Source of the DNA: Nitratiruptor sp. SB155-2
GTDB taxonomy: Bacteria; Campylobacterota; Campylobacteria; Campylobacterales; Nitratiruptoraceae
Assembly: GCF_000010325.1 (NCBI RefSeq)
Contig: NC_009662.1
Location: forward strand, 62,001-126,000
Direction of reading: 5' to 3'
Length of the DNA: 64,000 nucleotides
Below are positions 9,952 through 27,159 of the stretch, one piece after another; position 1 is the first letter of the stretch, and each line of letters opens with the position of its first letter. The notes under the pieces were generated by a model that was not told where the DNA came from, made no database searches, and worked only from the letters and a program-made list of their open reading frames with translations. Both the position numbers and the translations under genes were made by a program.

Positions 9952-9954
9952 TGT

Positions 9955-12900: not shown

Positions 12901-13059
12901 CTTGAGAGACTAAGTCCGCTAGCAGATGTGGCAATCGGAGGGCTTTTGGTAGGAACCCTTCTAACACTTATCTATGTGCCGATGTATGCCTATGCAACTG
13001 ATCCAAGAAACAGAAAAACAAATCCGATAGAAAAAGTTGAAGAGTATATCGAAGAATAA
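9955..13059 (+). CDS. RND-family efflux pump, HAE1-like
   Basis: A 1034-residue inner-membrane transporter with the RND layout: one N-terminal helix, a large periplasmic loop, six helices, a second loop and six helices. The proton-relay pair is present in GMLVDDAVVVLENIERH, at about residues 390-406, and favours the multidrug HAE1 class over metal pumps. The N-terminal PYLLFSLIVGFFAMGIIGL and PKNLFPD motifs are typical. It completes a TetR-TolC-adaptor-pump unit; substrate not deducible. Confidence 0.93.
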   Translation: MFEYFYQRPYLLFSLIVGFFAMGIIGLKSLPKNLFPDANRPQVVVITSVPGATAEVAANTVSKPIEEEISRISLVRDVSSVNVANFSIVKAEFEYEKGLEAAAVDVANALSIARGKLPKNANPSVYTVGDFTLPVEVVALSPKNSNISLQEIRKIAESHIKPYLLANPHIGNVEVFGGYQSAINIEVDPFKAKKYGVDFDTLAKVLFALNKDIPIGFTKSKESFYTITYYGEKDNIEKLKNLHILPNVKLSDIAKVSWSYKKRTSGYLGNGKNAIALSIQRAPAGSVLDVSDAARAEIKKLQKLYPNIDFQIADTQRTLIETANENMLEALRDAIVYTLLVLLFFLGNFRAIIAAGISIPLVFFGTIAIIWLGGGELNIVIYTAIILALGMLVDDAVVVLENIERHLELNEDMQTAIVNGTKEVLGPVFAGTVGTIAIIFPLMFVGDFPEHIFRPLISTLIIALLVSYFLSITFIPRFSAVLYKNGTGKTKIEQWFEDVYKYTIGQLIGPYISVLKFSNGKWWALRRMLLTAAVVLTFVLSLKNVMPLIGKDVMPPMDTGIIKAQVAFSANETVDSAEKKLHKFLVWLHKQPWVKSSSVAFGSESGVLSLGSGNLPSEATITINAVDRFHRNKTIWQLEDEIRDKIAELPGVKKNDVFDFGATALSTIKAPLDIRIKAADYEKLPDKAKEIIDAIRNVKGLTSISQSWDKDFQEVVINIDKNRALSYGVTPYQIAMQIPLKGQVVSLAADMATMNTQFVRMYLKGKFNENIQSLKLLPIKTKFGEIPLSELAKVSYQLTPAKIERDKLLYSVDVSGYRSKRPVTHITDDANAALAKVDTTGFVVTQEGDIAQLHDSFKRMIKAIAIGVIILIMTLTAIYESVRLAIIMILVLPLSMIGAAWGMLIFHKPSCMPSMVGLLLLFGIIIKNAVLLIDFYKEYEKEGKSPFEAAIESVRVRFRPVMMTAFGTIAGMIPIALEQAVGLERLSPLADVAIGGLLVGTLLTLIYVPMYAYATDPRNRKTNPIEKVEEYIEE

Positions 13060-13068
13060 GGAGGGGAT

Positions 13069-13434
13069 ATGCAAACACCAACACCAGAGCAAGTTATGAA
13101 TATGATGAAAGATCGCTTTGGAAAGTTGCCAAAATCAATCGAAGAGGCAGCGGAAGTGGATCCAAGCTTGATAGTAGAACAAGCTATCAGTTCAAAATTA
13201 AGCATGCAAAGCGAAAAAAATGCACTTGATCCAAAAACAAGTACACTTGTATTCTTGGCAGCTGCTTTGGCCCTAGGCAATGAGGAGTGCGTAGAGCTCA
13301 ATACAAAAGCGGCCAAAAAGATGGGTGCGACCAATGAAGAGATTCTTTCAGTCATTCGTATTGTTCGCCATGCAGCTGCAAGTGGAATCGTTGGAACTGC
13401 CGAAGCGGCATTAAAAAATTTAAAAGAAGAGTGA
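13069..13434 (+). CDS. Carboxymuconolactone decarboxylase-like protein
   Basis: A 121-residue helical protein of the CMD/AhpD superfamily, recognised by the segment ALALGNEECVELNTKAAKKMGATNEEI. The CXXC of peroxidase-active AhpD is reduced to a single Cys here, so a disulfide-reductase role is not supported by what I see. It lies 9 bases behind the RND pump and ends in a good terminator, so it is the last gene of the pump operon. Confidence 0.75.
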   Translation: MQTPTPEQVMNMMKDRFGKLPKSIEEAAEVDPSLIVEQAISSKLSMQSEKNALDPKTSTLVFLAAALALGNEECVELNTKAAKKMGATNEEILSVIRIVRHAAASGIVGTAEAALKNLKEE

Positions 13435-13447
13435 AAGCTCTTCTTTT
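13422..13447 (+). terminator. Terminator of the RND efflux operon
   Basis: AAAAGAAGAG-TGAAAG-CTCTTCTTTT: a perfect 10-bp hairpin with a six-base loop that ends in T residues and includes the stop codon of the CMD-like gene. It separates the efflux operon from the CDF gene that begins 15 bases later. Confidence 0.7.
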
Positions 13448-13461
13448 GAAATGAGATATCT

Positions 13462-14367
13462 ATGGCTCACCACCATCATCATGTGAAGGGTAAAAATCTT
13501 TTTATCACCATTATCTTAAATATCATCATTACCCTCTCTCAAATAGTTGGCGGCATTTACGCAAACTCTTTATCACTTCTGAGTGATGCTATGCATAATC
13601 TCAGTGATGTTCTTTCTTTGGTGATTGCTTGGGCTGCAAATACGATAGCCGCCAAACCCTCAACCAAAAGCTATACTTTTGGTCTAAAAAGAGCAGAGAT
13701 AATTGCGGCACTCTTTAACGCCTCACTCCTTCTTGGAATCGCTATCTTTTTAGTTATCGAAGCCTTCCACAAATTTTTTCATCCCCAAAGCGTCGATTCA
13801 CTCTGGGTTATTTGGCTAGGGGGTTTGAGTATTCTTTTAAATACTCTTAGTGTTCTGCTTGTGAAAAAAGATTCGGAAAAAAACATCAATATCAAAGCTG
13901 CCTACTTGCATCTGCTAACCGATGTTTTTACTTCAATAGCCGTTGTGGTAGGTGGACTGCTTATGCAGTTCTATCACATCTACTGGGTGGATCCGGCTGT
14001 CTCTCTTCTCATAGCTTTTTATCTCATATATGCTTCAATTGATATTGTAAAAGAGTCCATTGCCATTTTGATGGAGTTCGCGCCAAAATCTATCGATATA
14101 GAAAAGATTGCGGATGAGGTGAAAAAGATAGAAAAGGTTGAAAATATTCATCATATCCATATCTGGAGACTTGGAGAGCATGATATCTTTTTGGAAGCCC
14201 ATATCGATTTTAAAGAGAATCTTCCTTTACAAGAGGTGACGCAAATCATTGCAGATATCGAAAAACTTTTACGTGAAAAATTTTACATATCGCATGTCAC
14301 ACTGCAGCCCGAGTTTCAAAGAGATGATGATAAATCGATAGTAGTACAAAGGGATCCAGGTGCCTGA
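13462..14367 (+). CDS. Cation diffusion facilitator (CDF) metal exporter
   Basis: A 301-residue CDF/ZitB-type transporter with six membrane helices and a C-terminal cytoplasmic metal-binding domain. The conserved HxxxD metal sites are visible in SLLSDAMHNLSDVLSL (helix 2) and AAYLHLLTDVFTS (helix 5). The protein begins MAHHHHHVKGK, a natural His cluster usual in zinc exporters. Predicted function is Zn2+ (or Co2+/Cd2+) efflux driven by protons. Its stop overlaps the next gene's GTG start by 8 bp, making it the head of the long plus-strand run. Confidence 0.9.
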   Translation: MAHHHHHVKGKNLFITIILNIIITLSQIVGGIYANSLSLLSDAMHNLSDVLSLVIAWAANTIAAKPSTKSYTFGLKRAEIIAALFNASLLLGIAIFLVIEAFHKFFHPQSVDSLWVIWLGGLSILLNTLSVLLVKKDSEKNINIKAAYLHLLTDVFTSIAVVVGGLLMQFYHIYWVDPAVSLLIAFYLIYASIDIVKESIAILMEFAPKSIDIEKIADEVKKIEKVENIHHIHIWRLGEHDIFLEAHIDFKENLPLQEVTQIIADIEKLLREKFYISHVTLQPEFQRDDDKSIVVQRDPGA

Positions 14368-15061
14368 GTGGATAGATACATTTATAGCTTCCCATTCGGC
14401 ATTGGCTTTTTTGGCTTCTTTTGTTGCAGGAAGTCTTACTGCAGCTGCCCCTTGCTCTTTGGTATCCGTACCACTGCTTGTAGGGAGTGCAATTGCCCTC
14501 AATAAAGATCTGAAAGGCCGCAAAAAAATATTGTTCACCTATGCATTTTCTGTACTTTTTGCTTTGGGAGTAGTGGTGAGCTTTTCTATTTTGGCTTTTT
14601 TGGTAGCGAAGTTTGGTCTCTTTTTCTCTATCGCTCCTATGTGGGCATATCTGATTGCTGCAGTTGTTAGCATCATGGTTGGACTCTACGCTTGGGGCGT
14701 TTTTAGCGAAATCAATAAATCTGTACTCATAGAGAAGTTTATTCGCTTTCGGCTTTTTGGAGGTTTTTTGATAGGCATCGTGTTTGGGCTTGTCAGTACT
14801 CCTTGTGCCTCCGCTCCACTTGTTGCGATTATAAGCGCTGCTGCAAACAGCCACTATATCTATGCCTACATGCTGGTTTTAACCTTTGCTTTTGGTCACT
14901 CTTTGCTTCTGCTGATAGCAGGAGTTTCTGTCGGATTTGCCCAACAGCTTATCTCAAACAAAACGGTAGCCAGACTTTCCAATGCTCTCAACAAAAGTTT
15001 TGCTCTCGTTTTGGTGGGGTTTGGTTTTTACTTTTTTTACAGAGCGTTAGAGCAGATATGA
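14360..15061 (+). CDS. CcdA/DsbD-like membrane thiol-electron transporter
   Basis: A 233-residue protein with six membrane helices. The two cysteines expected of CcdA/DsbD-beta proteins are placed in TAAAPCSLVSVPLLVG (helix 1) and VSTPCASAPLVA (helix 4), each next to Pro as in the family. Such proteins move electrons from cytoplasmic thioredoxin to periplasmic thiol proteins, and the next gene encodes a secreted thioredoxin-like protein. The GTG at 14360 overlaps the CDF stop. Role in cytochrome c maturation or in sulfur handling is inferred. Confidence 0.82.
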   Translation: MPEWIDTFIASHSALAFLASFVAGSLTAAAPCSLVSVPLLVGSAIALNKDLKGRKKILFTYAFSVLFALGVVVSFSILAFLVAKFGLFFSIAPMWAYLIAAVVSIMVGLYAWGVFSEINKSVLIEKFIRFRLFGGFLIGIVFGLVSTPCASAPLVAIISAAANSHYIYAYMLVLTFAFGHSLLLLIAGVSVGFAQQLISNKTVARLSNALNKSFALVLVGFGFYFFYRALEQI

Positions 15062-15071
15062 AAGGAAAAAG

Positions 15072-15437
15072 ATGAAAAGATTATTGTTAGCTGCTGTGTT
15101 TGGCTTGTCTCTTTTTGCAGAGGCAAAAATGCTGCCTTCCACTCCATTTGCAGCGATTCAAGAAGCGATCGCTTCAGGGAAACGGGTATTTGTAGAAGTT
15201 GGATCAGATCACTGTTTTAGTTGTCAAAAGATGGGAAGAGTGCTCTATAAAATAAAACAGGAGTATCCCGATTCCCAGATATTTTTCTTAAATATCGAAA
15301 AGAACAGAGATGCAGCAAACCGGTTAAAAATCGTGCTTATTCCAACACAGATTCTGTATGAAAACAAAAAAGAGGTCTACCGTTATATCGGTTTGCTTTC
15401 AAAAGATGAAATTGTACATCTACTAAAAGGAAGATGA
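15072..15437 (+). CDS. Periplasmic thioredoxin-like protein
   Basis: A 121-residue protein with a signal peptide (MKRLLLAAVFGLSLFAEA) and a thioredoxin fold whose active site is CFSC in GSDHCFSCQKMG (about residues 51-54); the cis-Pro loop is IVLIPTQ. It is probably the reduced partner of the CcdA-like membrane protein encoded just upstream, equivalent to DsbD-gamma or a CcmG-like protein. Its stop overlaps the first rhodanese start. Confidence 0.85.
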   Translation: MKRLLLAAVFGLSLFAEAKMLPSTPFAAIQEAIASGKRVFVEVGSDHCFSCQKMGRVLYKIKQEYPDSQIFFLNIEKNRDAANRLKIVLIPTQILYENKKEVYRYIGLLSKDEIVHLLKGR

Positions 15438-15823
15438 TGGAGTTTGATGCATATTTGAAACGTTTCGATTACGAGGAGCGAAAGGCTATGAAGATAGGGC
15501 TCGATGAGATGTTCGAGCTTTTACAAAAAGATGAGGCACAGGTTGTGGATATCAGATTTCATGAAGAGTACGAAGCGTGGCATGTGGGATTTGGGTTGCA
15601 TATTCCACTCAATGAACTGCCAGATAGATTGAATGAGCTTGATAGAAGCAAAACGATCATTACCATGTGTCCTCATTACGATAGGGCAGAGATTGCAAGA
15701 CTCTATCTGACACTTAAAGGTTTTCATGCAAGATATTTGACCGATGGGATGCTGAAAGTGGTGGATTTTCTAAGAGGCGATAAAGCAAGAGATATGATGG
15801 AAAAAATCAGAGGAGGTAAGTGA
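15437..15823 (+). CDS. Rhodanese-domain protein 1
   Basis: A cytoplasmic single-domain rhodanese of about 128 residues (no signal peptide). The predicted persulfide cysteine lies in TIITMCPHYDRAEIARLYL, with CPHYDR forming the active-site loop, and DIRFHEEYEAWHVGF is the substrate-side motif. Rhodaneses carry sulfane sulfur as a cysteine persulfide. The second ATG at 15437 is preferred because AAGGA sits 5 bases upstream; an ATG one codon earlier is possible. It is adjacent to a second, divergent rhodanese. Confidence 0.85.
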   Translation: MEFDAYLKRFDYEERKAMKIGLDEMFELLQKDEAQVVDIRFHEEYEAWHVGFGLHIPLNELPDRLNELDRSKTIITMCPHYDRAEIARLYLTLKGFHARYLTDGMLKVVDFLRGDKARDMMEKIRGGK

Positions 15824-16182
15824 TGGAGTTTATCAAAAAAGTGGTTCCCAGTGAGATGAAAAATATACGAATCTCGGTGGAGGAGTTTATCGAGCTCTAT
15901 AACAAGGGTGAAGCAGAGCTTGTGGATATCAGGATGCCTTTTGAAACAGCTGTATGGCAAGTCAATTTTGGATTGAAAATCCCGGCACCACAGCTGCCAG
16001 AAAGAGCCCATGAGCTTCCGAAAGAGAAGCTCATCGTTGTTGCCTGTCCGAAAACAGATAGAGCAAATATGGCAAGAGTATGGCTGACAGAGCAAGGGTT
16101 TGATGCAAGATATCTTGATGGAGGTTTGTTGAATCTCATGGATTGCCTTCGGGGTGGAAAAGCCAAGGATATAAAGCTGTAA
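15823..16182 (+). CDS. Rhodanese-domain protein 2
   Basis: A 119-residue rhodanese with the active-site loop CPKTDR in IVVACPKTDRANMARVWL and the upstream motif DIRMPFETAVWQVNF. It is clearly related to the preceding gene: both start MEF, share VDIR-(M/F)-P/H-E and end with an LRGGKA/LRGDKA element, which indicates tandem duplication followed by divergence. ATG at 15823 overlaps the previous stop (TGATG). A TauE-type exporter starts 1 base after its stop. Confidence 0.85.
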   Translation: MEFIKKVVPSEMKNIRISVEEFIELYNKGEAELVDIRMPFETAVWQVNFGLKIPAPQLPERAHELPKEKLIVVACPKTDRANMARVWLTEQGFDARYLDGGLLNLMDCLRGGKAKDIKL

Positions 16183-16183
16183 G

Positions 16184-16936
16184 ATGAGTGCCGATATTAT
16201 CCATTACGCAATATACTTTTTCTTAACATTGGTTCTTTCCACCCTCTTTGCCATGGGTGGAGTTGGAAGTGCCATCGCTCTTGTACCGCTATTTTCAATG
16301 ATGGGTATGCCTATCAATTTAGCAAAAGCGATTGGGCTTTTTATCAACTCGGCATCTACCATCACAGCTTCTGTTATGAACTTTTTTAGAGGAGTGCTGG
16401 ATATCAAATTTGCCCTTCCGCTCATTATCTCTATAATGGTTGCTACGCCTATTGGAGCTTGGAGCAGCCAATATGTCCAAAAAGAGATCATTGAGTGGAT
16501 GTTGGTTGCATTTTTATTGATAAGTTCCACTCTTTTGCTCTTTAGCAACAAAAAACCAAAAGTTGTGTATGACAAAGTTTGGGTGTTGTATGTAATAGGT
16601 GGCAGTGTGGGGATTGTTTCAGGTATGATTGGCGTTGGCGGGGGTTCCCTTATTATGCCGCTACTTATTTTACTAGGGTTCGATGCAAAAAAAGCGGCTT
16701 ATGCGATAAGTTTTGTTATTCCTTTTTCGACTCTGGGAGCCTTTTTTACCTATCTTGGCTTCGTTCATATGGATTGGATACTCCTTGGAGTTGTTACAGT
16801 CGCAGCAATCATTGGAGGATATCTTGGGGATTTTATTATGCATTACCGTTTAACCCCAAATCAGATAAAAAAGCTTATTGCGGTCGTTCTTCTTTTACTG
16901 GCTTTAAAAATGGTTTATCAATTACTAGGAGCGTAA
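16184..16936 (+). CDS. TauE/SafE-family sulfur-compound membrane transporter
   Basis: A 250-residue membrane protein with about eight helices in two related halves. The family's duplicated motif is seen as AMGGVGSAIALVPLFSMMG in the first half and GMIGVGGGSLIMPLLILLG in the second. TauE/SafE proteins move sulfite, sulfoacetate, thiosulfate or related anions. Its place directly after two rhodaneses makes an inorganic sulfur substrate likely, but this is inference. Confidence 0.88.
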   Translation: MSADIIHYAIYFFLTLVLSTLFAMGGVGSAIALVPLFSMMGMPINLAKAIGLFINSASTITASVMNFFRGVLDIKFALPLIISIMVATPIGAWSSQYVQKEIIEWMLVAFLLISSTLLLFSNKKPKVVYDKVWVLYVIGGSVGIVSGMIGVGGGSLIMPLLILLGFDAKKAAYAISFVIPFSTLGAFFTYLGFVHMDWILLGVVTVAAIIGGYLGDFIMHYRLTPNQIKKLIAVVLLLLALKMVYQLLGA

Positions 16937-16937
16937 G

Positions 16938-17183
16938 ATGCTACATATTTTAAAAAAAATTGCAGACTGGATTATAGAGCATGAAAAGAGTGCGGCACTT
17001 GATTGCAGTGTACCCGATGAGATTATCGATGAGTGGCTTGAGACGATTGAAGAGCGAAAACAAGAGATGGAAGAGGAGGGCCACACCGATTCTGAACAGT
17101 ATGAGATGCTTTTAGATCTTGAAAAAAGAGTCAAAGAGATCAAAGAGATGAGGAAAAAGAGGTGCCTTATAAAGAAAAAATAA
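16938..17183 (+). CDS. Small acidic unknown protein
   Basis: An 81-residue charged protein, unrecognised. It has a short N-terminal amphipathic helix (LHILKKIADWIIEHEKS) and then a Glu/Lys-rich predicted coiled coil up to the C-terminus. The gene starts 1 base after the TauE stop and is followed 10 bases later by a small membrane-protein gene, so it belongs to the same transcript. Coding status is supported by this tight spacing and biased composition only. Confidence 0.6.
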   Translation: MLHILKKIADWIIEHEKSAALDCSVPDEIIDEWLETIEERKQEMEEEGHTDSEQYEMLLDLEKRVKEIKEMRKKRCLIKKK

Positions 17184-17193
17184 AGGGTTTTTT

Positions 17194-17430
17194 ATGAAGC
17201 CAAAAAGAAGAGTATTTGGAAAGAGTAAAGAAAACAACCAAAACCTTCACTCAAGAGGGATAGCCGCACTTTTTGCAGCTTTTGGCGCTGTGGCATTTTG
17301 GCGAGGAAGCTGGATGCTTATGGATAGGTATCTTTTTCCAAATAACGATCTATTAAGTGCTGTTGTGAGCATTGTAGGCGGAATTGCGATAATTTTGTTT
17401 TTAAACTATAAATTTGAGGATCTCTTTTGA
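17194..17430 (+). CDS. Small two-helix membrane protein, unknown
   Basis: A 78-residue protein with a basic N-terminus (MKPKRRVFGKSKEN) and two predicted membrane helices (about 24-45 and 53-72). Unrecognised. Its stop overlaps the ClC start by 4 bp, so it is translationally coupled to the channel and could be an accessory subunit; that is only a contextual guess. Confidence 0.6.
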   Translation: MKPKRRVFGKSKENNQNLHSRGIAALFAAFGAVAFWRGSWMLMDRYLFPNNDLLSAVVSIVGGIAIILFLNYKFEDLF

Positions 17431-18697
17431 GCCTATCTATTGATATATCAAAACTAAAATGTATCGGTTATGCCACATTTATCGGTATTGTTATGGGCGT
17501 TTTGATAGCGTTGATGATAAAGCTTCTTTTTTTCATGATAGATCTCTCAAAGGATCTACCGTTTGAGAGTTTTTATCTTGCACCTATCATTTTGCCGCTC
17601 GTTTGGTATCTCAATAGATGGCTTTCAAAAAAAGAGATCGTTTTTCAAGAAGATGAGATCAAAGAGATATATGATTATATAGAATTGAACAAAGATGAAA
17701 AACCGCACTATCTACATTATGTTTTTGCGAAAATTTTTCTTTTTTTTGCGACAGTTTTCGTCGGTGGTTCCGTGGGTCCAGAAAGACAGGGGATTCAACT
17801 GGGAGCCGGGATGTGCCAGTTCTTTGCAAAAGTTTTTTCTTGCAAAGGATTTGATAGAAGAAGTCTGGTTGTAGCGGGCATCGCTGCGGCTTTTTCTGTT
17901 ATTCTTGGAGCACCGATAGCTGCACCTGTTATTGCGATAGAGCTGATGGCGGTGCATATCGTGGTTTATGAGACGCTTCTAGCTGCTACGATAGCAAGTT
18001 TTTTCGCATTTTTAAGTGCGAAGTTTTTGCATATCGATTATCACTATTTTGAGCCTTTGCCACACTTTTTCCCCCAGTATGAATGGTCGCTCTTTTTGCC
18101 CGTTATTCTTGCCGGTCTTTTTTTTGCCTTGCTCTCTTTTGTGATTGTTCGATTTTTTAGAGTGTTATCTTTTTTCAATGTGGCTACTGCAGTCCATCCT
18201 GTTTTGAAAGCAGTTTTTGTAGGTTCTTTTATTATGTTGCTTGGGAGCTACGGATTGACATCTCCTCTTGGGCTTGGAGTCGATGAGATAGAGTCTACAT
18301 TCAAAGCTACAGAGAATGTGGCATGGTATCTGCCGTTACTCAAAATTGTAGCGACTGCTTTTACCTTGGAGTTTGGAGGAGAAGGGGGAGTGTTTACTCC
18401 ACTTTTATATGTTGGCAGCATGAGTGGACACTGGTTCGGCCAGTTCATTGGAGGAAATGCTCCTTTTTTTGCCGCTTTGGGATTTGTCTCTGTTATAGCT
18501 GCAACGATGAGAATACCTGTATCCTCTGCCATACTCGCAGCTGAACTTTTTGGCGTAAAAAGGCCCATTTTGCCTTCATTACCATTTTGATAGCCTATAT
18601 TGTCAACAAAAACCATACCCTTTTTGAAGCGCAAGGAGAAGCGATCAAAAAGTCCGATGCGTTGATAGCTGAGATGAAAAGATTTTTAAAGATGTAA
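17427..18697 (+). CDS. ClC-type chloride channel/antiporter, frameshifted near the C-terminus
   Basis: A ClC-family protein with the glutamate-gate region GSVGPERQGIQLGAG (about residue 115) and the second anion motif GGEGGVFTPLLYVGS (about residue 315). As written the frame stops at 18590 (387 residues), but the frame one base back continues from 18563 to TAA at 18697 and encodes a hydrophobic segment AHFAFITILIAYIVNKNHT and a charged tail, matching the last ClC helix. One extra A in the A5 run at 18557-18561 restores a single 424-residue protein. Residues flanking the gate (Pro-Glu-Arg-Gln) differ from the classical Arg-Glu-Gly-Pro, so ion selectivity is uncertain. Confidence 0.8.
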
Positions 18698-18717
18698 ACC
18701 AAACAAAGGAGCCAAAA

Positions 18718-19764
18718 ATGCCAGATCCAAGATTTTTAAAGCCGTGGCACGGAATACCAAGAGAGGAGATAGACTGGCATCCAACAGTGGATCATGACAA
18801 ATGTATAGGGTGCGCAACATGTGTGACAGGTTGTAACAGGCTCGTGTATAGATACGATTTCGAAAATGAAAAATCGATCGTTTATGATCCGTTAAACTGT
18901 CTTGTAGGATGTACCACTTGCCACAATACTTGCCCGGTGGATGCCATATCCTTTCCGCCATTTGATGTGGTTTTCGATCTGGAGAAAAGAGTGGATGAGC
19001 ATCACGCTGTTGAAGATGATCTTTTTACAAGAAGAGATATTTTGGAATACAAAGAGGCAGAGCCTGCGCCAAAAGAGCAGGCAAAAGTGATGTATAAAGA
19101 GATAAGAGGTGATGTTACAATCCTAAGATGTGATCTTGAAAATTTGCAAAATATACGAGCCGGACGCTATATGGAGCTTGAAATTCCAGGCAAAAACTGG
19201 CTTGGAAGAAGTTATTCCGTTGCGAATGTTCCTTTCAATGACGGATATGTAGAGTTTCACATCAAAAGAGTTCCGGGAGGAAGATTTAGCGAATATGCCT
19301 ACAACGATTTACAAATAGAAGATACCTTCACCGCAAAAGGCCCTTACGGGAAATTTGTATACGATTCGCAAAACAGACTCTATTTCGTAGCTCTTGGTGT
19401 TGGACTTGCACCGCTTGTGGGAATGATAAGAGAGGTACTGTTGCACGATCCACAGAGGGATATCAAACTTTTTTGGGGAGTGAACCGATCAAAAGATTTT
19501 TACTATCTCGATGAGATTAACGAGCTTGCCCAAACATATAAAAATTTTAAACCTGTTTTGGTAGCAAAAGAGTATGATGTGGCATTCAAACTGCCAAAAC
19601 ATGGGCAGTTTTTCAAAAAAAGAGCACTGGAAGCTTTCATAGAAGAGATTTTTGATACCGATAGGGACTACTATATAGCGGGACCTTTTGGAGCATTGAA
19701 TACGTTTAAAAAGGTACTTGTGAAAAACGGAGTGGATGAGAGCAAGATATTTACAGAGATATAA
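18718..19764 (+). CDS. Ferredoxin-domain/FNR-type flavoprotein reductase
   Basis: A 348-residue fusion. The first 90 residues hold two [4Fe-4S] clusters (CIGCATCVTGC at about 29-39 and CLVGCTTCHNTCP at about 61-73). From about residue 125 follows an FAD/NAD(P)-binding module: RSYSVANVP (flavin), GPYGKFV, then ALGVGLAPLVGMI (nucleotide-binding) and YYIAGPFGAL. It is soluble, so it should pass electrons between NAD(P)H and a ferredoxin-like or membrane acceptor. It stands between a ClC gene and a split membrane permease; partner unknown. Confidence 0.82.
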   Translation: MPDPRFLKPWHGIPREEIDWHPTVDHDKCIGCATCVTGCNRLVYRYDFENEKSIVYDPLNCLVGCTTCHNTCPVDAISFPPFDVVFDLEKRVDEHHAVEDDLFTRRDILEYKEAEPAPKEQAKVMYKEIRGDVTILRCDLENLQNIRAGRYMELEIPGKNWLGRSYSVANVPFNDGYVEFHIKRVPGGRFSEYAYNDLQIEDTFTAKGPYGKFVYDSQNRLYFVALGVGLAPLVGMIREVLLHDPQRDIKLFWGVNRSKDFYYLDEINELAQTYKNFKPVLVAKEYDVAFKLPKHGQFFKKRALEAFIEEIFDTDRDYYIAGPFGALNTFKKVLVKNGVDESKIFTEI

Positions 19765-19767
19765 AAA

Positions 19768-20181
19768 ATGATAGAGACACTTTATACATCTTTGAAAAGC
19801 TTTTTCAAGATAACTCCAATGCTCTTAGGCGTTATCGGAATTGTCGGTATTTTCAAAGTTTTTATAACCCCCGATCTGCTTGCATCTTTTTTTACCAAAA
19901 ACCCTTTTTATGATACGTTTATAGGCCTTTTTGCCGGAGCGATTGCCGTTGGCCAAGCGATTGTGAGCTATCTTCTGGGTGGAGAGCTTTTAAGAAGCGG
20001 TGTCTCGCTTTATGGGGTGACAGCGTTTATTTTGGCTTGGGTTACCCTCGGAATCGTACAGTTGCCACTGGAAGCCAGCGTATTGGGTATTCGGTTCACT
20101 GTTTTAAGAAATGTTTTGGCTTTGATTTTTACCTTTTTGGTCACTCTCGCTACTGTCTGGACGCTGGAGCTTTTGGGATGA
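19768..20181 (+). CDS. Split permease (YraQ/UPF0718-like), first half
   Basis: A 137-residue membrane protein with four hydrophobic segments. GLFAGAIAVGQAIVSYLLGGELLRSGVSL and the following TLGIVQLPLEA resemble one half of YraQ/ArsP-like permeases (PF03773), which normally have two such halves in one chain of about 300 residues. The next gene overlaps by 4 bp and encodes a similar second half, so the two probably assemble as one permease. Substrate unknown. The family assignment is by motif resemblance only. Confidence 0.65.
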   Translation: MIETLYTSLKSFFKITPMLLGVIGIVGIFKVFITPDLLASFFTKNPFYDTFIGLFAGAIAVGQAIVSYLLGGELLRSGVSLYGVTAFILAWVTLGIVQLPLEASVLGIRFTVLRNVLALIFTFLVTLATVWTLELLG

Positions 20182-20657
20182 GAGGGAAATGGTTTTTACT
20201 GGCTGTAATTGCAATCTATATTGCTCTTTTTTTCTTGTACCCCCAAAAAGTCACTTTGGCTTTAGAGGAGTCTTTTCATCTTTTGATCAAAATCGCGCCT
20301 ATTTTAGCCCTCGTCGTTTTAATCAATGCGCTTATAAATTTTTTTATAGACCCGAAAACATTGGCAAAACATCTAAGCCGCGAGAGTGGAAAAAAGGCTT
20401 GGATTATCGCACTTCTGGCTGGAGTTTTGAGTCACGGCCCTATGTATGCGTGGTATCCTTTGATAGAGGATTTAAAGAAAAAGGGTCTTCGAGATTCGCT
20501 TATAGCCCTCTTTTTTTATGCAAGGGCTGTAAAACTGCCACTGCTGCCTTTGATGGTACACTATTTTGGGCTAAAATTTACTATAGTTGTCAATATCTAT
20601 ATCGTCGTAGCGGCATTATTGCAAGGGATAATAGTTGAAAAAATTGAAAATAGCTGA
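20178..20657 (+). CDS. Split permease (YraQ/UPF0718-like), second half
   Basis: A 159-residue membrane protein with four or five helices. The segment GVLSHGPMYAWYPLIEDLKKKG followed by FYARAVKLPLLPLM matches the conserved core of YraQ-type permeases. The ATG at 20178 overlaps the upstream stop (ATGA); an open frame extends further upstream inside the first half but lacks a reason for earlier start. It overlaps the K+ channel's TTG start by 23 bp. Confidence 0.65.
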   Translation: MRGKWFLLAVIAIYIALFFLYPQKVTLALEESFHLLIKIAPILALVVLINALINFFIDPKTLAKHLSRESGKKAWIIALLAGVLSHGPMYAWYPLIEDLKKKGLRDSLIALFFYARAVKLPLLPLMVHYFGLKFTIVVNIYIVVAALLQGIIVEKIENS

Positions 20658-21738
20658 TTTTAGCTTAGCCACGCTCTATATTCTTGTATATGTACTTTTC
20701 TTATTTTTGGCCTCCTTGTTCATGGAGTATATCGAGCCAAATAACTTTCAAAATTTTTTTGATAGTTTTTGGTGGTCCATTGTTACAGCAACGACCGTTG
20801 GGTATGGAGATATAGTCCCTCATACTTTTGTGGGAAAAATTATCGCTCTTTTGATCATAATTGGCGGTGTAATTGCAGTGGCAGTTTTTACAGCGACCAT
20901 GACAAGCAAACTGGTAGCCATGAGTATCTTTTCAAAAAAGGATTATGAGATGTTAGACTCCTTGAACAAGCACCTTGTTATTTGTGGATTCAAAACACCC
21001 AGAATTGAGGTGCTAAGAAGTTTTCAAGCCCATTATGGTGACAATATCGTCATCATATATCCAGAACTTGTTCCAGAACTCAAAAAGATCTTGGAGGAGT
21101 ACAATCTCAAATGGGCACAAGGCGAATACAATGATGAAGCTGTTTTGAAAGAAGCCCATATAGAAAGGGCGGATAAAGTGATGATTTTGAATTTGCATGA
21201 TGAGTTTGCAGACGCAAGGGTACTGGAAACTGTCATAGTGATTCGCTCATTGAATCCCCATGTCTATATTACAGCAGAAATCATCGATCCAAAGTATGAA
21301 AACTACCTTATCAAAAGTAAATGCAACGAGATTATCATGAGCGAAGAGTACAACAGGTTTTTGCTTTCAAAATCTGTCACAGAGCCTGGTATGTCCAAGG
21401 TTATCCGGAAGCTTCTTAGAACGCAAAATATCCATATCCAAACGAAACACTCCTATGTAGGAATCTCTTATAAAGCGGCTTTTGAGGAGAGTTTGCAAAA
21501 AGGGGAGATACTCATAGGCATCGTAAAAAACTATATAACGGAGAGTGAACTGAAAAAGATTGTTTTAAAAAAGCTGCAGTTTGGAGGTGATGTGGAAAAG
21601 TATAAAAAGCTTCTCACAAAAATCAAAAGAAACGAAGTTGAGATGGAAGTGGTCATCAATCCGGATGATGATATGATCATTCCAGAATTTGCTGCTTTGA
21701 TAGTTATGGAGAGGAAACATGGAAAATCCGATATTTGA
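20635..21738 (+). CDS. Potassium channel with RCK/TrkA domains
   Basis: A 367-residue two-helix channel. The selectivity filter TVGYGD is at residues 54-59 between helices at about 12-30 and 70-92. From residue 105 a TrkA-N-like RCK domain follows (HLVICGFKTPR, AHIERADKVMILNLHDE), and residues 265-367 form a TrkA-C-like tail. The start is TTG at 20635, because no ATG lies before the first helix. It probably sets membrane potential or K+ flux in response to a ligand bound by the RCK domain. The next gene overlaps by 20 bp. Confidence 0.85.
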   Translation: MKKLKIADFSLATLYILVYVLFLFLASLFMEYIEPNNFQNFFDSFWWSIVTATTVGYGDIVPHTFVGKIIALLIIIGGVIAVAVFTATMTSKLVAMSIFSKKDYEMLDSLNKHLVICGFKTPRIEVLRSFQAHYGDNIVIIYPELVPELKKILEEYNLKWAQGEYNDEAVLKEAHIERADKVMILNLHDEFADARVLETVIVIRSLNPHVYITAEIIDPKYENYLIKSKCNEIIMSEEYNRFLLSKSVTEPGMSKVIRKLLRTQNIHIQTKHSYVGISYKAAFEESLQKGEILIGIVKNYITESELKKIVLKKLQFGGDVEKYKKLLTKIKRNEVEMEVVINPDDDMIIPEFAALIVMERKHGKSDI

Positions 21739-22165
21739 AGGTTTGAACGAAGAGGAAAAGAGAAGTTTTTTGTCTCTTTTTACAAAAAAAGAGGTGCAAA
21801 AAGGTGATGTGATAAAACAAGAGGGGGATCGCTTAAAAAAGGGTTTCTTTTTAGAAAACGGAAGGCTTGTTGTAAAAAAACATTCTTCTGAAGGAGAGAT
21901 AGAGGTCGCTACTATCAGTGACAGCAGTCTCTTTTTCTCTCTTACTTGCCTTGTTGATGGAGGGAAAAGTTTAACGACGGTAGAAGCTCAAGAAAACTCC
22001 ACTATCTTAGAGATTTCGCAAAAGGAGTTTTTTGCTTTTTGTCAAAAAAATCCAGCAACTGGCGTAAAAATTCTAAAAAACATAACCTTGCTTCTTGCAA
22101 AATATCTAAGAAAAAGCGATGAAAAAATTGTCCAAATGTATAAAACTTTAGAAGAGGTGCTGTGA
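21719..22165 (+). CDS. Stand-alone cyclic-nucleotide-binding domain protein
   Basis: A 148-residue protein made of one CNB/cupin domain (residues 8-130, with the beta-roll segment GDVIKQEGDRLKKGFFLENGRLVV) and a final helix. There is no helix-turn-helix, so it is not a Crp-type DNA binder. The phosphate-binding Arg/Glu motif of true cAMP sites is not obvious, so the ligand is unknown. It overlaps the K+ channel gene and is coupled (TGATG) to the globin-sensor gene; it may supply the regulatory domain that other channels carry in cis. Confidence 0.75.
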   Translation: MENPIFEGLNEEEKRSFLSLFTKKEVQKGDVIKQEGDRLKKGFFLENGRLVVKKHSSEGEIEVATISDSSLFFSLTCLVDGGKSLTTVEAQENSTILEISQKEFFAFCQKNPATGVKILKNITLLLAKYLRKSDEKIVQMYKTLEEVL

Positions 22166-23259
22166 TGAATGCAAAAATTGAACTGGTAAAAGAGATCTAC
22201 CAACTGCAAGACAATGATCTGCAAGAAAGAAAAAAAGCATTAAAGAAAATAGAACCCTATGTAGATGAGATAATGGATCAGTTTTATAAGAGGCTTTTGC
22301 AAAAAGAGGATTTTGCCAAATTTATTTCTGTAGAGAGAATTCCAGAACTCAAAAGAAAACAGATCAAGTTTCTTGTCCAGCTTCTTTCAGAGCCTTTTGA
22401 TGAAAAACTCTATAAAAGAATCGCAAAAGTGGCTATTGTACACTACCATATACAACTAGATCCCATCTATATGTCCTATGGATACCATATTTTAAGTGAA
22501 CTTATATTGGCGCAATCACAAAAAGATCCCTCTATTTTGCCCTATCTGAAACTGATTATCAAATATTTGAAAGTTTCAGAGGAGATTATGAAAGAGGAGT
22601 ATTTTGCACAAAAAATGCTTGCCGAGTCTCCATATAGGGCGAACGATCTCTTTATCGCGGTCAATAGCCTTCATATGGCATATATCCGATGCAAAAGCTC
22701 CTTTGAGAATTTGAGGGTGGATGAAAAAGCAAAAGAGCTTTTTGAAAAGAGCTTGGAGGAGTTAAAAGAGTACAAAGATGTCTTGGAAGAGGCCGGATTT
22801 CATCTTGCAACCATTAAACGATTTTGTACACAGTTTTCCAATGAACCAAATGAGAAGAATTTAGAGGCGTTGAAAAATGCCATTGTAAAGCCTTTGAATA
22901 ACGTCAACGTTACCGCCTATCTCTCTTTGACAAGCTCCCTTGCCACCATGCGTGCGATGACAGATATCGTCTATAAAAGAACTATTGTAAATGAAAAAGA
23001 GTTAACAATAAAGAGCGTACAGCACAAAATATTTACACTGTTCAGTGAAAATTACGGCTGGGCAATATCGGATATAGAGTTTTTAGACAAGGAGCCCGAA
23101 TCCGGATACGAGATAGTGAAGTATATGGCTTTTCGTGAAAAGATATTTTTCCTCTGTATCAATGTCAGAGATGTTATCAACAAGTTATATGTTGTTGAAG
23201 GAATCGATCTTTTGGCTGAAGCCATGAAGCTGACACTCTATAACAGAAGCAAGGAGTAG
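22165..23259 (+). CDS. Globin-coupled sensor (protoglobin domain) with unknown output
   Basis: A 364-residue cytoplasmic protein. Residues 1-155 match the protoglobin/globin-sensor fold; the proximal-heme signature reads HYHIQLDPIYMSYGY, in register with the family pattern HxxIxLxPxWY. Residues 160-364 are helical then mixed alpha/beta and match no output domain that I recognise; it is not a methyl-acceptor, kinase or GGDEF domain. It likely binds heme and senses O2, NO or CO. ATG at 22165 overlaps the CNB stop (TGATG). The small unknown gene and feoAB follow. Confidence 0.75.
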   Translation: MNAKIELVKEIYQLQDNDLQERKKALKKIEPYVDEIMDQFYKRLLQKEDFAKFISVERIPELKRKQIKFLVQLLSEPFDEKLYKRIAKVAIVHYHIQLDPIYMSYGYHILSELILAQSQKDPSILPYLKLIIKYLKVSEEIMKEEYFAQKMLAESPYRANDLFIAVNSLHMAYIRCKSSFENLRVDEKAKELFEKSLEELKEYKDVLEEAGFHLATIKRFCTQFSNEPNEKNLEALKNAIVKPLNNVNVTAYLSLTSSLATMRAMTDIVYKRTIVNEKELTIKSVQHKIFTLFSENYGWAISDIEFLDKEPESGYEIVKYMAFREKIFFLCINVRDVINKLYVVEGIDLLAEAMKLTLYNRSKE

Positions 23260-23260
23260 G

Positions 23261-23581
23261 ATGAGTTTAGAATATTGTTATCCTCTTAAAGAGGGCGAAA
23301 TACTTCATGAAGAGCATGATGAGTGGCCTTTGTTTGATGTAACGATCCATGGAAGTGATACGGAGCGGGTGAAACTGGCCAAAAGGCTTGTCTGTTCTGT
23401 CAAACATATGCCGCTTCGATTGAGAATTCACTATGAAAAGGATGCAGTAAAATCGATCGAAAAGGGTGTGGGGAAAGATCCAACGTTAGAGTGTCAAGGC
23501 AAAATCTTGGCTGAGGGGCTTGTGAGTGCAGAGGAACTGACACAGATTTTTGAAAGGCTTTTGGAACAAAACAATGAGTAG
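23261..23581 (+). CDS. Small unknown protein preceding FeoA, thioredoxin-like in its C-terminus
   Basis: A 106-residue cytoplasmic protein. The second half (DPTLECQGKILAEGLVSAEELTQIF) resembles the last strand-helix unit of thioredoxin-like proteins, but no CXXC is present; Cys residues occur singly (YCYP, LVCSV, LECQ). I cannot name a family. It begins 1 base after the globin-sensor stop and overlaps feoA, which ties it to iron uptake. Confidence 0.6.
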   Translation: MSLEYCYPLKEGEILHEEHDEWPLFDVTIHGSDTERVKLAKRLVCSVKHMPLRLRIHYEKDAVKSIEKGVGKDPTLECQGKILAEGLVSAEELTQIFERLLEQNNE

Positions 23582-23828
23582 AAGGCTCCTGTCTCAGATG
23601 AAACCAAAAGAGCGAGGGATCATCAAAAAAATCGGCGATATTGGTGAGCTGAAACGACGGCTTTTAGAACTTGGTGCGCTTACAAAGGTTCCTATAGAGG
23701 TGGTTCGGATAGCTCCTTTTGGTGATCCCATCGAGATAAAAATAGGCAATACCTATTTGGCGCTGCGTAAAAGCGAAGCAAACAAAATTGAGGTGGAACT
23801 TTTTAAGGATAAAGCATGTTCACCGTAG
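23574..23828 (+). CDS. feoA: Ferrous iron transport protein A
   Basis: An 84-residue SH3-like FeoA protein: LSQMKPKERGIIKKIG, then LKRRLLELGALTKVPIEVVRIAPFGDPIEIKIG and an ALRKSEANKIEVE ending, the standard FeoA core. It assists the FeoB GTPase-permease. ATG at 23574 is chosen since it overlaps the previous stop and begins the domain; the longer frame from 23550 has no support. It overlaps feoB by 13 bp. Confidence 0.92.
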   Translation: MSRRLLSQMKPKERGIIKKIGDIGELKRRLLELGALTKVPIEVVRIAPFGDPIEIKIGNTYLALRKSEANKIEVELFKDKACSP

Positions 23829-25936
23829 CATTTGTCGGCAATCCCAATGTAGGTAAAACGGCACTCATCAACGATATTGCCGGAAGCGATCTACAAGTAG
23901 GTAACTGGCCTGGGGTGACGGTAGAGAAAAAAGAGGTGACATTTACCTATCACGATGAGAAGATCCATCTTGTTGATCTTCCAGGGACCTATACTCTCAC
24001 ACCATATTCACTGGAAGAGAAGATTACAAGAAATGTTATCTGCTCCGAACAGATTGATGGCATTATCAATGTTGTGGATGTTACGGATATCAGACGTAAC
24101 ATGTATTTGACATTAGAACTCGTTGATCTGCAAAAGCCTTTGGTTGTAGCGCTGAATATGTTCGACGAATTTACCAAAAGAGGGTATGCGCTTGATATTG
24201 AGAGATTAGAGGCAATCTTGGGTGCCCCTTGTGTACCCACGATAGGATCCAAGGGAATAGGGACGAAGAGGCTTGTTAAAGAGATGTATGACGCAATCAA
24301 AGAGGAAAGAAAACCAAAAGTCATTCCTTATCAAGAGCATATTGAAAAAGAGATAGCCTTTTTGATCAAAAAGATGGAGAGGGAAGATTGCCAGTTAAAA
24401 AGATTTTTTGCCATAAAGCTTTTAGAAGAAGATGAATTTGCCACTAAGAGAGTAGAGCAGATGGACCCTTCTATCGTGCAGGCAGCCAAGGAGGCAAGAG
24501 AGCGGTTGCAACGACATTTTGGCATGAGTGTCAAAGAGTTCATCGTACAAGACAGATATCAAAAAATAGACAAGATTTTAGATGAGGTGCTCAAAAAACC
24601 GTTGATTGATAGAGTCCTTTTGAGTGATAAAATCGACAATTTCGCACTGCATCAATGGTTTGGCATTCCTCTTTTTGTAGTGATTATGTTTTTGATGTTT
24701 AAGATAACCTTCGATGGCAGTGCTCCGATAGTGGATTGGATGAGTGGATTTTTCGAAAACTTTTTAGGGCCTCATCTAAGAGCTTCCATGCATCCCTTGC
24801 CGCCTTGGATGGTTTCGCTGCTTGTAGATGGAGTTCTGAGTGGCGTGGGGCTGGTTCTTTCTTTTTTACCCCTTTTAGCCTTTTTATACTTTTTCATGGC
24901 TCTTTTGGAAGAGAGCGGCTATATGGCAAGAGTGAGCTTTTTGCTTGATAGGTTGGCTGCTGGGCTTGGAGTGAAGGGAAATGCCTTTATATCTTTGATT
25001 GTCGGATTTGGCTGCAATGTACCGGCAGTCTATTCTACAAGAACTTTAAGTTCGCTTCGAGAGCGCATAATCGTGACATTGATGATTCCGTTTATGAGCT
25101 GCAGTGCGAGATTGCCTATCTATGCCCTTTTTACCGCACTCTTTTTTAGGCATCATCAGGCTTTGATCATTTTATCGATGTACCTGTTGGGAATTATTGT
25201 TGCATTGGCGATTGGATTTTTGGCGAACAAGCTTTTGCCAATGCAAGATTCAAAACCTTTTTTTCTAGAACTCCCTACCTATCATATGCCGACGTTCCAT
25301 GCAATATGGCGGTCGATGAAACCAAGACTTGCCGATTTTATTACGCGAGCCGGTACCGTGATTGTCGCAGCTTCCATAGTTGTATGGGCCATTATGAGCC
25401 TGCCTCCTTCATCCACTCCTCAAACATCCTATTTGGCAAGAACTGCTCAAAAGATTGCTCCCCTTTTTAAGCCTCTTGGTTTTGGTGAGCATTGGGAGCC
25501 TGTAGCGGCACTCATTCCTGGGACTTTAGCCAAAGAGGTGGTGATAGGCTCTCTTGGAACTATTTATGGTGTGGAAAATGCGAAAAAAAAGGTAGCTAAA
25601 ACTTCATGGCTCGATGATCTTTGGGATCAAGTAAAAGCGTTGGGAAGAGCGTTAAAAGATTCGATACTCAATATAACAACCCTGCAGATTGCTTCCCTGC
25701 AAAGTGAGCAAACCTCAAGCCTGCTGATGCAAAAACTGCGTAGTCAGATTGCCACACCAGCTGCTGCACTATCCTATATGATTTTTGTTTTGCTCTATAT
25801 TCCATGTGTCTCAACAATGGCGGCCATCAAAGAAGAGTTTGGCTGGAAACTTATGGTGTTTGAAGTGCTGTTTTTGCCGGTTTTAGCCTATTTTATTACC
25901 TTTTTTCTCTACTCGGTAGTAAAATATTTTCTTTAG
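23816..25936 (+). CDS. feoB: Ferrous iron transporter FeoB
   Basis: A 706-residue FeoB. The N-terminal G domain shows G1 GNPNVGKTALIN (7-18), switch region GNWPGVTVEKKE, G3 DLPGTYTL and G4 NMFDE; a helical GDI domain follows, then two gate regions with conserved Cys in GFGCNVPA and SCSARLPIY. FeoB imports Fe2+ through the inner membrane and is the main iron route in microaerobes. It closes the long plus-strand run and converges with nosD, overlapping by 4 bp. Confidence 0.95.
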   Translation: MFTVAFVGNPNVGKTALINDIAGSDLQVGNWPGVTVEKKEVTFTYHDEKIHLVDLPGTYTLTPYSLEEKITRNVICSEQIDGIINVVDVTDIRRNMYLTLELVDLQKPLVVALNMFDEFTKRGYALDIERLEAILGAPCVPTIGSKGIGTKRLVKEMYDAIKEERKPKVIPYQEHIEKEIAFLIKKMEREDCQLKRFFAIKLLEEDEFATKRVEQMDPSIVQAAKEARERLQRHFGMSVKEFIVQDRYQKIDKILDEVLKKPLIDRVLLSDKIDNFALHQWFGIPLFVVIMFLMFKITFDGSAPIVDWMSGFFENFLGPHLRASMHPLPPWMVSLLVDGVLSGVGLVLSFLPLLAFLYFFMALLEESGYMARVSFLLDRLAAGLGVKGNAFISLIVGFGCNVPAVYSTRTLSSLRERIIVTLMIPFMSCSARLPIYALFTALFFRHHQALIILSMYLLGIIVALAIGFLANKLLPMQDSKPFFLELPTYHMPTFHAIWRSMKPRLADFITRAGTVIVAASIVVWAIMSLPPSSTPQTSYLARTAQKIAPLFKPLGFGEHWEPVAALIPGTLAKEVVIGSLGTIYGVENAKKKVAKTSWLDDLWDQVKALGRALKDSILNITTLQIASLQSEQTSSLLMQKLRSQIATPAAALSYMIFVLLYIPCVSTMAAIKEEFGWKLMVFEVLFLPVLAYFITFFLYSVVKYFL

Positions 25937-27159
25937 TGATTCACTGGCTCCATTCGGGGGAGCCTGTCTTCCAAAAGCTTTTCTGGTTCGCTAAAAGGTG
26001 CGAGACGCTCGATAAAGTCTAAAAGTGAAAAGATTGGAGTAGCATAGAAAAACTGCAGGTGGTGATCGTTTTGCCAAAGTCTATCGGCATAGAGAAGGAT
26101 TTGGTAGGGGATATCACCAAAGCCGTCTTTGTTTTGATCAAATCCTTGGTAGCGATCCCAGTAGTTTTTTTCGATGATATTGTTTGCTTTTTTGATTTTT
26201 GATAGATCCCTGACCACATCGTTTAAGTTACCGAGAAAGTCGTTGTTTGTAATGGTGTTGTTGCAAATGGCAGAATGAAAATGCAAAGCTGTGAAGTTAT
26301 TGGAAAATATATTGTGCTCAATATATCGACGCATACCAAGCTCGGCCGGAGATGAATCGATATAGATTCCCTGGGCACAGCCATAGACTCTGTTGTTTTT
26401 TACGAAAATATCTTTGCCGTGTGCAAGTAAAATACCAGTTCCCGTTGCAAGGCGTGTATCGAAAATTGTATTGTGATCGAATGTGATGCGCGAACCACCT
26501 TTGAGATAGATACCCGCATAGATATCATGGATGTTATTTGCTGAGGCTGTGAGATTATGATCCATCATAGCCAAAATACCGTATCTTGCATGTTCAATTT
26601 GATTATTTTTTACCAAGATATTTTTCGATCGATTGATGGAGAGATCTCTTCCTTGAAAAAAGCGGTTGTTCTGTATAAGGATATTTTTGCATCCCCACAA
26701 ACGAACAAAGTCTCCACGATTATCTACAACTTTTTCCAGGAAAGATGCAATGGCGTTGTTTTTGAAAATAAGATGATTGCTATAGTGTGCAACAATGCCA
26801 AAGAGTGCATTATCGATTGTGCAATCTTGTATAGATACATTACGGACATTTTCCATCGTTATTGCAGCATCCATTGTGTCCCGGCGTTTGCCACTTCCTT
26901 GAATATGAAGTCCGTTGATATGTACATCGGATGCTTTGATCGTAATGACACTACCTTTTTCAGCGCCTACAATCGTACAATTTTTGGCTTTGATAGTGAG
27001 TGGTTTATCGATTACAATAGTTTCATGGAAGGAGCCCCCAGCGAGATTGATAATGGAGCCAGGTTTTGCGTTATCGATTGTATTTTGCAAAATACCGCTA
27101 TGGCTATATATCAAAATGGTAAAAAAGATAAAGAGATATCGTACGACTATGCTATCCAT
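25933..27159 (-). CDS. nosD: NosD-like periplasmic copper-processing protein, orphan
   Basis: A 408-residue secreted protein with an N-terminal signal helix and a right-handed parallel beta-helix (PbH1/CASH repeats from about 40 to 330: HINGLHIQGSG, VSIQDCTIDNALFGI, NILIQNNRFFQGRDLSINRS and further turns). The C-terminal NYWDRYQGFDQNKDGFGDIPY motif is typical of NosD, needed for CuZ-site assembly of nitrous oxide reductase. No nosZ, nosF or nosY is in the window, so it could also be a general copper-pathway beta-helix protein. It stands between feoB and dedA. Confidence 0.82.
   Translation of the reverse strand: MDSIVVRYLFIFFTILIYSHSGILQNTIDNAKPGSIINLAGGSFHETIVIDKPLTIKAKNCTIVGAEKGSVITIKASDVHINGLHIQGSGKRRDTMDAAITMENVRNVSIQDCTIDNALFGIVAHYSNHLIFKNNAIASFLEKVVDNRGDFVRLWGCKNILIQNNRFFQGRDLSINRSKNILVKNNQIEHARYGILAMMDHNLTASANNIHDIYAGIYLKGGSRITFDHNTIFDTRLATGTGILLAHGKDIFVKNNRVYGCAQGIYIDSSPAELGMRRYIEHNIFSNNFTALHFHSAICNNTITNNDFLGNLNDVVRDLSKIKKANNIIEKNYWDRYQGFDQNKDGFGDIPYQILLYADRLWQNDHHLQFFYATPIFSLLDFIERLAPFSEPEKLLEDRLPRMEPVNH

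Follow-up and report, generated by a model that had tools for sequence, protein, structure and literature searches.

The window analysed here is a 64,000-nucleotide stretch of the genome of Nitratiruptor sp. SB155-2 (NC_009662.1, positions 62,001 to 126,000), a member of the class Campylobacteria with a single contig of 1,877,931 bases. We find in this window a dedicated and conserved cassette of three genes, which encode a predicted MthK-like K+ channel (KCH), a free-standing protein with a predicted cyclic-nucleotide-binding (CNB) fold (hereafter CNB), and a putative protoglobin sensor that carries no kinase (GLOB). The three are the first members of a six-gene string at 20635-25936, checked here on the open reading frames:

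20635-21738, forward strand: KCH, 367 amino acids (aa), TTG start.
21719-22165, forward strand: CNB, 148 aa, without helix-turn-helix, overlapping KCH by 20 base pairs (bp).
22162-23259, forward strand: GLOB, 364 aa from the ATG at 22165 (1 bp overlap with CNB) or 365 aa from the GTG at 22162 (4 bp overlap).
23261-23581, forward strand: p106, 106 aa, separated from GLOB by 1 base.
23574-23828, forward strand: FeoA, overlapping p106 by 8 bp.
23816-25936, forward strand: FeoB, overlapping FeoA by 13 bp.

A preliminary description of this region had reported the same overlaps and gap (20 bp, 1 bp, 1 base, 8 bp, and 13 bp), all of which the open reading frames confirm, and had described a string running from channel through CNB and globin to Feo. 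The genes it named are borne out by their Pfam and NCBIfam families, but 20635 is not where the string starts: the six genes are the final part of an unbroken forward-strand run that begins near 6987.

Tight overlaps are by themselves weak evidence for a unit, and it is the conserved order across genomes that carries the case. Among 397 Campylobacteria genomes, the KCH subfamily (E<1e-60) is present in 10, which bear six family labels (f1, f4, f5, f8, f11, and f12); these are G000, G029, G031, and G374 from the window's genus, together with G073, G057, G218, G009, G104 (locus L069), and G299 (locus L076), with one of the 10 KCH genes split over two contigs. The gene after KCH is the CNB orthologue in every one of them, at a spacing of -20 to +3 bp that usually amounts to an overlap, and an overlap, of 17 bp, is kept by the pair of G299 as well, the most divergent of all (33% and 29% identity). 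GLOB occupies the third position in 8 of the 10, always directly behind CNB, and is full-length in seven and globin-only in G218. The close family of GLOB is never found away from KCH-CNB, either in the 397 genomes or in a peptide scan of species genomes: a two-peptide pattern, which detects close relatives only, retrieves eight loci from 84,980 species genomes, all of them in metagenome-assembled genomes (MAGs) of Campylobacterota, including MAGs labelled Nitratiruptor, and all eight with KCH-CNB-GLOB. These loci partly come from the same genomes as members of the 397-genome sample (L080/G374, L084/G218). A tblastn search against PLSDB reveals no plasmid-borne copies of GLOB.

The gene directly before KCH, by contrast, varies among genomes (i.e. 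a permease, CDF, RND, thioredoxin-like, SQR-like oxidoreductase, or peroxiredoxin-like gene). Because the trio stays together while the flanking genes change, KCH-CNB-GLOB is treated here as the unit, and "cassette" refers to these three genes throughout. The order is thus not peculiar to this genome, a possibility that the preliminary description had left standing: KCH-CNB is found in 10 genomes and KCH-CNB-GLOB in eight, across at least six families of Campylobacteria, and the feo end of the proposed string abuts the cassette in only 2 of 10. The pairwise distances of KCH, CNB, and GLOB are also related (r 0.76-0.86), but this comparison has no control and linked genes would show the same, and it is not used as proof of interaction.

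KCH has two predicted transmembrane helices and a pore with the motif TATTVGYGD (sequence TATTVGYGDIVP; Pfam Ion_trans_2, PF07885, 7e-17), followed at residues 115-235 by an RCK/TrkA_N domain (PF02254, 6e-11), and it aligns to MthK over residues 17-251. The C-terminal tail resembles RCK_C by eye only, with no match to PF02080 at E<=1. At the level of sequence, KCH is therefore an MthK-like RCK K+ channel, sharing with that type a two-helix pore with a TVGYGD filter and a cytoplasmic RCK domain behind it. It differs from MthK-type channels, and from a common Campylobacteria channel of ~530 aa, in forming a distinct subfamily of ~360 aa, limited to 10/397 genomes, and in having the gene for a separate CNB-fold protein next to it every time. 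The ~530 aa channel, which most KCH genomes carry as well, provides the next-best matches to KCH (E>1e-25). Since KCH has an RCK domain of its own and aligns to MthK, it is not a channel that is missing its ligand domain.

CNB has a clear CNB fold (cNMP_binding, PF00027, 1e-12; 48.3 bits against a cut-off of 27.5), and one part of it is of particular relevance:

21935-21982, forward strand: phosphate-binding-cassette region of CNB, FSLTCLVDGGKSLTTV, in which the Gly-Glu and Arg positions are occupied by Phe-Ser and Ser.

The phosphate-binding-cassette Arg is missing in 16 of 16 aligned CNB sequences and the Glu in 15 of 16, the divergent CNB of G299 having retained Gly-Glu without the Arg; the loss of the Glu/Arg pair is also seen in a pairwise alignment to 4ev0. 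At the level of sequence, CNB thus has the fold without the nucleotide-binding residues. Searches with positive controls found neither a class III nor a class I adenylyl cyclase in the genome (class IV and other types were not searched), and likewise no diadenylate cyclase of the DAC family. Given the loss of the Glu/Arg pair and the lack of class I and III cyclases, classical cyclic-nucleotide sensing by CNB is unlikely, and control by cyclic AMP (cAMP) or cyclic di-AMP was rejected on the grounds that class I/III cyclases and the DAC family are both missing. The proposal in the preliminary description that CNB is the ligand-binding domain of the channel, encoded separately, is consequently not supported, given the RCK domain of KCH and the missing Glu/Arg pair of CNB. 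The most conserved stretch of the protein is its C-terminal tail, (M)YKTLEEVL, which is invariant or near-invariant and makes MYKTLEEVL a candidate contact site.

By analogy, CNB recalls the CNB-homology domain of EAG/hERG (KCNH) channels, in which a CNB fold is likewise tied to a K+ channel and the nucleotide site is lost; the domain of hERG is described in PMC4812329. CNB differs in being a separate polypeptide, and its presumed partner, judging by the pairing of the genes, is an RCK channel and not one with a voltage sensor. MlotiK1 and SthK also associate a CNB fold with a K+ pore, but in these the pore and the cAMP-binding CNB domain form a fusion, whereas CNB is separate and its phosphate-binding residues are absent.

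In GLOB, we distinguish the following parts and residues (ATG numbering):

22168-22611, forward strand: globin domain, Pfam Protoglobin.
22285-22287, forward strand: codon of distal Tyr41, invariant in the GLOB family.
22441-22443, forward strand: codon of proximal His93, invariant in the GLOB family.
22630-22920, forward strand: predicted helical bundle (residues 156-252), counterpart of the CZB-like domain in histidine kinases, zinc ligands absent.
22921-23256, forward strand: small, tentatively GAF-like alpha/beta part (residues 253-364), ending where HisKA begins in the kinases.

The globin domain is well supported (Pfam Protoglobin, 1.1e-17). His93 and Tyr41 align to His99 and Tyr45 of the globin-coupled kinase AfGcHK, where the His provides the axial ligand and the Tyr recognises O2 (PMC8697598). 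Related kinases (L038-L044) of f8, f10, and f11 genomes likewise have this His on the proximal and this Tyr on the distal side. Judged by its residues, GLOB carries the haem ligands of O2-sensing globins. Domain searches found no transmitter domain (kinase, GGDEF, EAL, or MCP) in the protein.

The C-terminal 200 residues of GLOB have no Pfam family, and the preliminary description had suggested that they might be an undescribed output domain. We reject a new output domain here, because the region has a homologue in protoglobin kinases, where it forms the middle module that precedes HisKA, even though Pfam does not contain it. Specifically, the globin and C-terminal part of GLOB align together to the N-terminal half of HisKA-HATPase_c proteins of 670-790 aa, most of which also carry a receiver domain, and a profile comparison matches residues 161-365 to the kinase middle module with an hhalign probability of 99.1 (E 6.7e-19, 206 columns). 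The post-globin module, 200-260 residues long, is common to GLOB and the protoglobin kinases, and in a joint alignment they share both a WAI motif and the way the module ends, with GLOB stopping just before HisKA. GLOB therefore differs from the globin kinases in having neither kinase nor receiver, and in the loss of zinc ligands. In the kinase relatives, a helical stretch that resembles CZB carries His/Cys ligands (the match of L043 to CZB, at E=0.0024, is below the cut-off); a predicted helical bundle lies at the same place in GLOB, but the 3His/1Cys zinc site that defines CZB (PMC8262984) is not found at the matching positions, where the alignment has His and Cys in the kinases. Residues ~156-364 are thus best described as a predicted input-side sensor/transmission module without catalytic output.

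An AlphaFold2 model of the C-terminal part alone (mean predicted local distance difference test score, pLDDT, 90.9; predicted template modelling score, pTM, 0.85) consists of a helical bundle and, behind it, an alpha/beta part; in the full-length model, the globin half is of low quality (pLDDT 34-65) and was not used. With VIA-align, the first part resembles the helical sensor bundles of McpS, NasR, and QseE (Z 6-8), and the alpha/beta part resembles many independent GAF chains (Z 5-7, ~100 residues), with only 3 strands in the model. Foldseek returns no match at E<=0.001 for whole GLOB or its C-terminal part, and two sequence profiles of the C-terminus find no solved structure. The GAF-like label is tentative, because Foldseek alone finds nothing significant; CZB is not among the structure-search rows for the C-terminus, which excludes nothing. 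The kinases L038-L044 are hybrid proteins of ~670-790 aa that combine protoglobin, a CZB-like domain with His/Cys, a GAF-like domain, HisKA, HATPase_c, and usually a receiver, and are apparently combined gas and zinc/oxidant sensors.

How might the three proteins work together? Globin kinases relay the state of the haem through their middle module, which hands it on to HisKA. GLOB has lost HisKA, which leaves protein contact as its route, and no proteins other than CNB and KCH are constant partners. We propose that GLOB, as a kinase-less globin sensor, and CNB, as a nucleotide-independent subunit, control the gating of KCH, and give this reading a probability of roughly 0.45. GLOB would bind O2 (or nitric oxide, NO, or carbon monoxide, CO), or change the redox state of its haem, and would then change shape as the globin kinases do; this change would pass by direct contact to CNB and/or the cytoplasmic RCK ring of KCH, with CNB playing in trans the part that the nucleotide-insensitive CNB-homology domain has in EAG/hERG. 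As an outcome, gas or redox state would set K+ flux, and hence membrane potential and cytoplasmic pH, and K+ control may form part of the metal/sulfur/redox stress response at hydrothermal vents. Complex formation, the direction of signalling, and the stimulus are all presumed in this scheme. A gas- or redox-controlled ion channel can reasonably be inferred from the locus; controlled iron import cannot. A stronger form of the proposal, i.e. that KCH, CNB, and GLOB sit in one complex and make up a K+ channel gated directly by O2, NO, or redox, with CNB as a nucleotide-independent subunit acting in trans and GLOB recycled from a histidine kinase that lost its kinase part, we consider doubtful.

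Several points weigh against the proposed control of KCH by GLOB and CNB. Proteins encoded by a single operon do not necessarily meet, and contact among the three proteins, haem binding, and conductance are predicted from sequence and gene order. L069 and L076 keep KCH-CNB without GLOB, indicating that the channel pair can work alone, and G218, a MAG from Lamellibrachia satsuma, retains only the globin half (164 aa, L037:1027-1521), directly behind CNB and without the transmission module. CNB, for its part, is not exclusive to channels, with relatives in six f5 genomes (L070-L075) found without a channel and beside recJ and pyrG, and it could bind some other ligand.

The channel could also belong to nothing more than a co-regulated stress island, with KCH and CNB forming one device and GLOB acting as a separate soluble scavenger of O2/NO or as a sensor for another partner, all co-transcribed because the same stress concerns all the genes. 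The many successive genes for efflux and for thiol and sulfur functions around the cassette fit this explanation, as do the existence of single-domain protoglobins and the fact that GLOB is missing in 2 of the 10 genomes and reduced to its globin in another. It accounts less well for the close GLOB family being always with KCH-CNB, a stricter association than that of the freely mixing p106, RND, and CDF genes, or for a signal-transmission module that a scavenger does not need, and we regard it as rather unlikely. More improbable is a Kef-like safety valve for K+ efflux, in which RCK/CNB would sense electrophile, sulfane-sulfur, or metal stress and GLOB would provide an accessory redox input. 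Rhodaneses, thioredoxin, DsbD-like, TauE/SafE, RND, and CDF genes in the island are in line with such a role, and so are the SQR-like oxidoreductase gene directly upstream of the cassette in G009 and the peroxiredoxin-like gene before KCH-CNB in G299; KCH, however, is not a KefB/C-type antiporter and has no sign of thiol-adduct binding. The safety valve differs from gating by GLOB and CNB mainly in its stimulus.

Classical control, in which CNB would bind cAMP or cGMP and gate KCH in trans as the CNB domain of MlotiK1/SthK does in cis, would explain both the clear CNB fold and the strict pairing with a channel. Considering that Gly-Glu and Arg are replaced in the KCH-linked CNBs (with the partial exception of G299, noted above) and that class I and III cyclases are missing from the genome, we judge it very improbable. 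The least credible explanation is the one closest to the preliminary description, i.e. a gas- or redox-controlled module for the import of both ions and iron that includes FeoAB. In its favor, the genes are contiguous and overlapping in the window genome (G000) and in G029, and a FeoB orthologue (>60% identity) lies ~8-9 kb from the cassette in G218 and G073. Against this, G000 and G029 are the only 2 of 10 in which FeoB abuts the cassette; the orthologue, at the same threshold, is absent from G031, G374, G057, G009, and G104, and G299 has only partial matches at contig ends. It is also present in 2 genomes of the Nitratiruptor family that have no cassette.

FeoAB instead travels with p106, because p106-FeoA-FeoB (L051, L052) is present in G257, which has no cassette, and in G073 lies separately from KCH-CNB-GLOB. 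Membership of FeoAB in the cassette is therefore rejected on both gene order and FeoB distribution: the uptake system is ordinary in itself (FeoA, Pfam 1.5e-21; FeoB, FeoB_N 3e-60 and TIGR00437 602 bits), but it is linked to p106 and is an independent neighbour of the channel genes. The p106 gene is found in 28/397 genomes, mostly without KCH and mostly beside efflux genes, and it belongs with the efflux/metal island and FeoAB, and only loosely with the cassette. It has no assigned family, and its match to TIGR00412 (E=0.0098) is far below the cut-off; the protein may possibly have a thioredoxin fold.

If the parts interact, they would offer a compact system with soluble partners in which to study the gating of a pore by a CNB fold that uses no nucleotide, an open issue for hERG-type channels too, and would show how a globin sensor signals after the loss of its kinase. 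K+ flux would then be tied to O2/redox in vent bacteria, whose habitat lies where anoxic fluid meets oxygenated seawater, and, should the single complex be real, it would represent a bacterial K+ channel gated directly by O2/NO/redox with a separately encoded CNB-homology subunit. In the open-access literature, we found no paper on a K+ channel of prokaryotes that has a separate CNB-fold protein as its obligatory partner or shares an operon with a globin sensor, which is only weak evidence of absence; searches gave nothing useful linking Nitratiruptor with K+ channels and nothing on stand-alone CNB proteins with RCK channels.

The forward-strand run that ends with FeoB (6987-25936) comprises ~25 genes concerned with efflux and with the handling of sulfur and thiols, and its upstream portion is as follows:

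6987-20657, forward strand: metal/sulfur-stress island, in the same run as the KCH string.

The island encodes RND efflux, CMD, CDF, DsbD-like, and thioredoxin proteins, two rhodaneses, TauE/SafE, ClC, a ferredoxin-FAD reductase, and two ArsP-like permease halves, and the last permease gene overlaps KCH by 23 bp. Most cassette genomes have a similar neighbourhood (RND efflux, CDF, rhodaneses, TauE/SafE, DsbD-like, thioredoxin, and chromate and ArsP-like permeases), which suggests that the surroundings of the cassette are a metal/sulfur/redox stress island. Parts of the island are reshuffled yet recur in many vent Campylobacteria.

On the other side of the string, a NosD-family gene (25933-27159, reverse strand; TIGR04247 314.6 bits, just above the cut-off) is convergent with FeoB, and none of the neighbours examined was recognised as a further nos gene. 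Immediately upstream of the cassette, two successive small permeases (19768-20657) each match the second half of the ArsP_1 profile; these split or duplicated half-permeases are also present in G029, G031, G218, G013, and G257.

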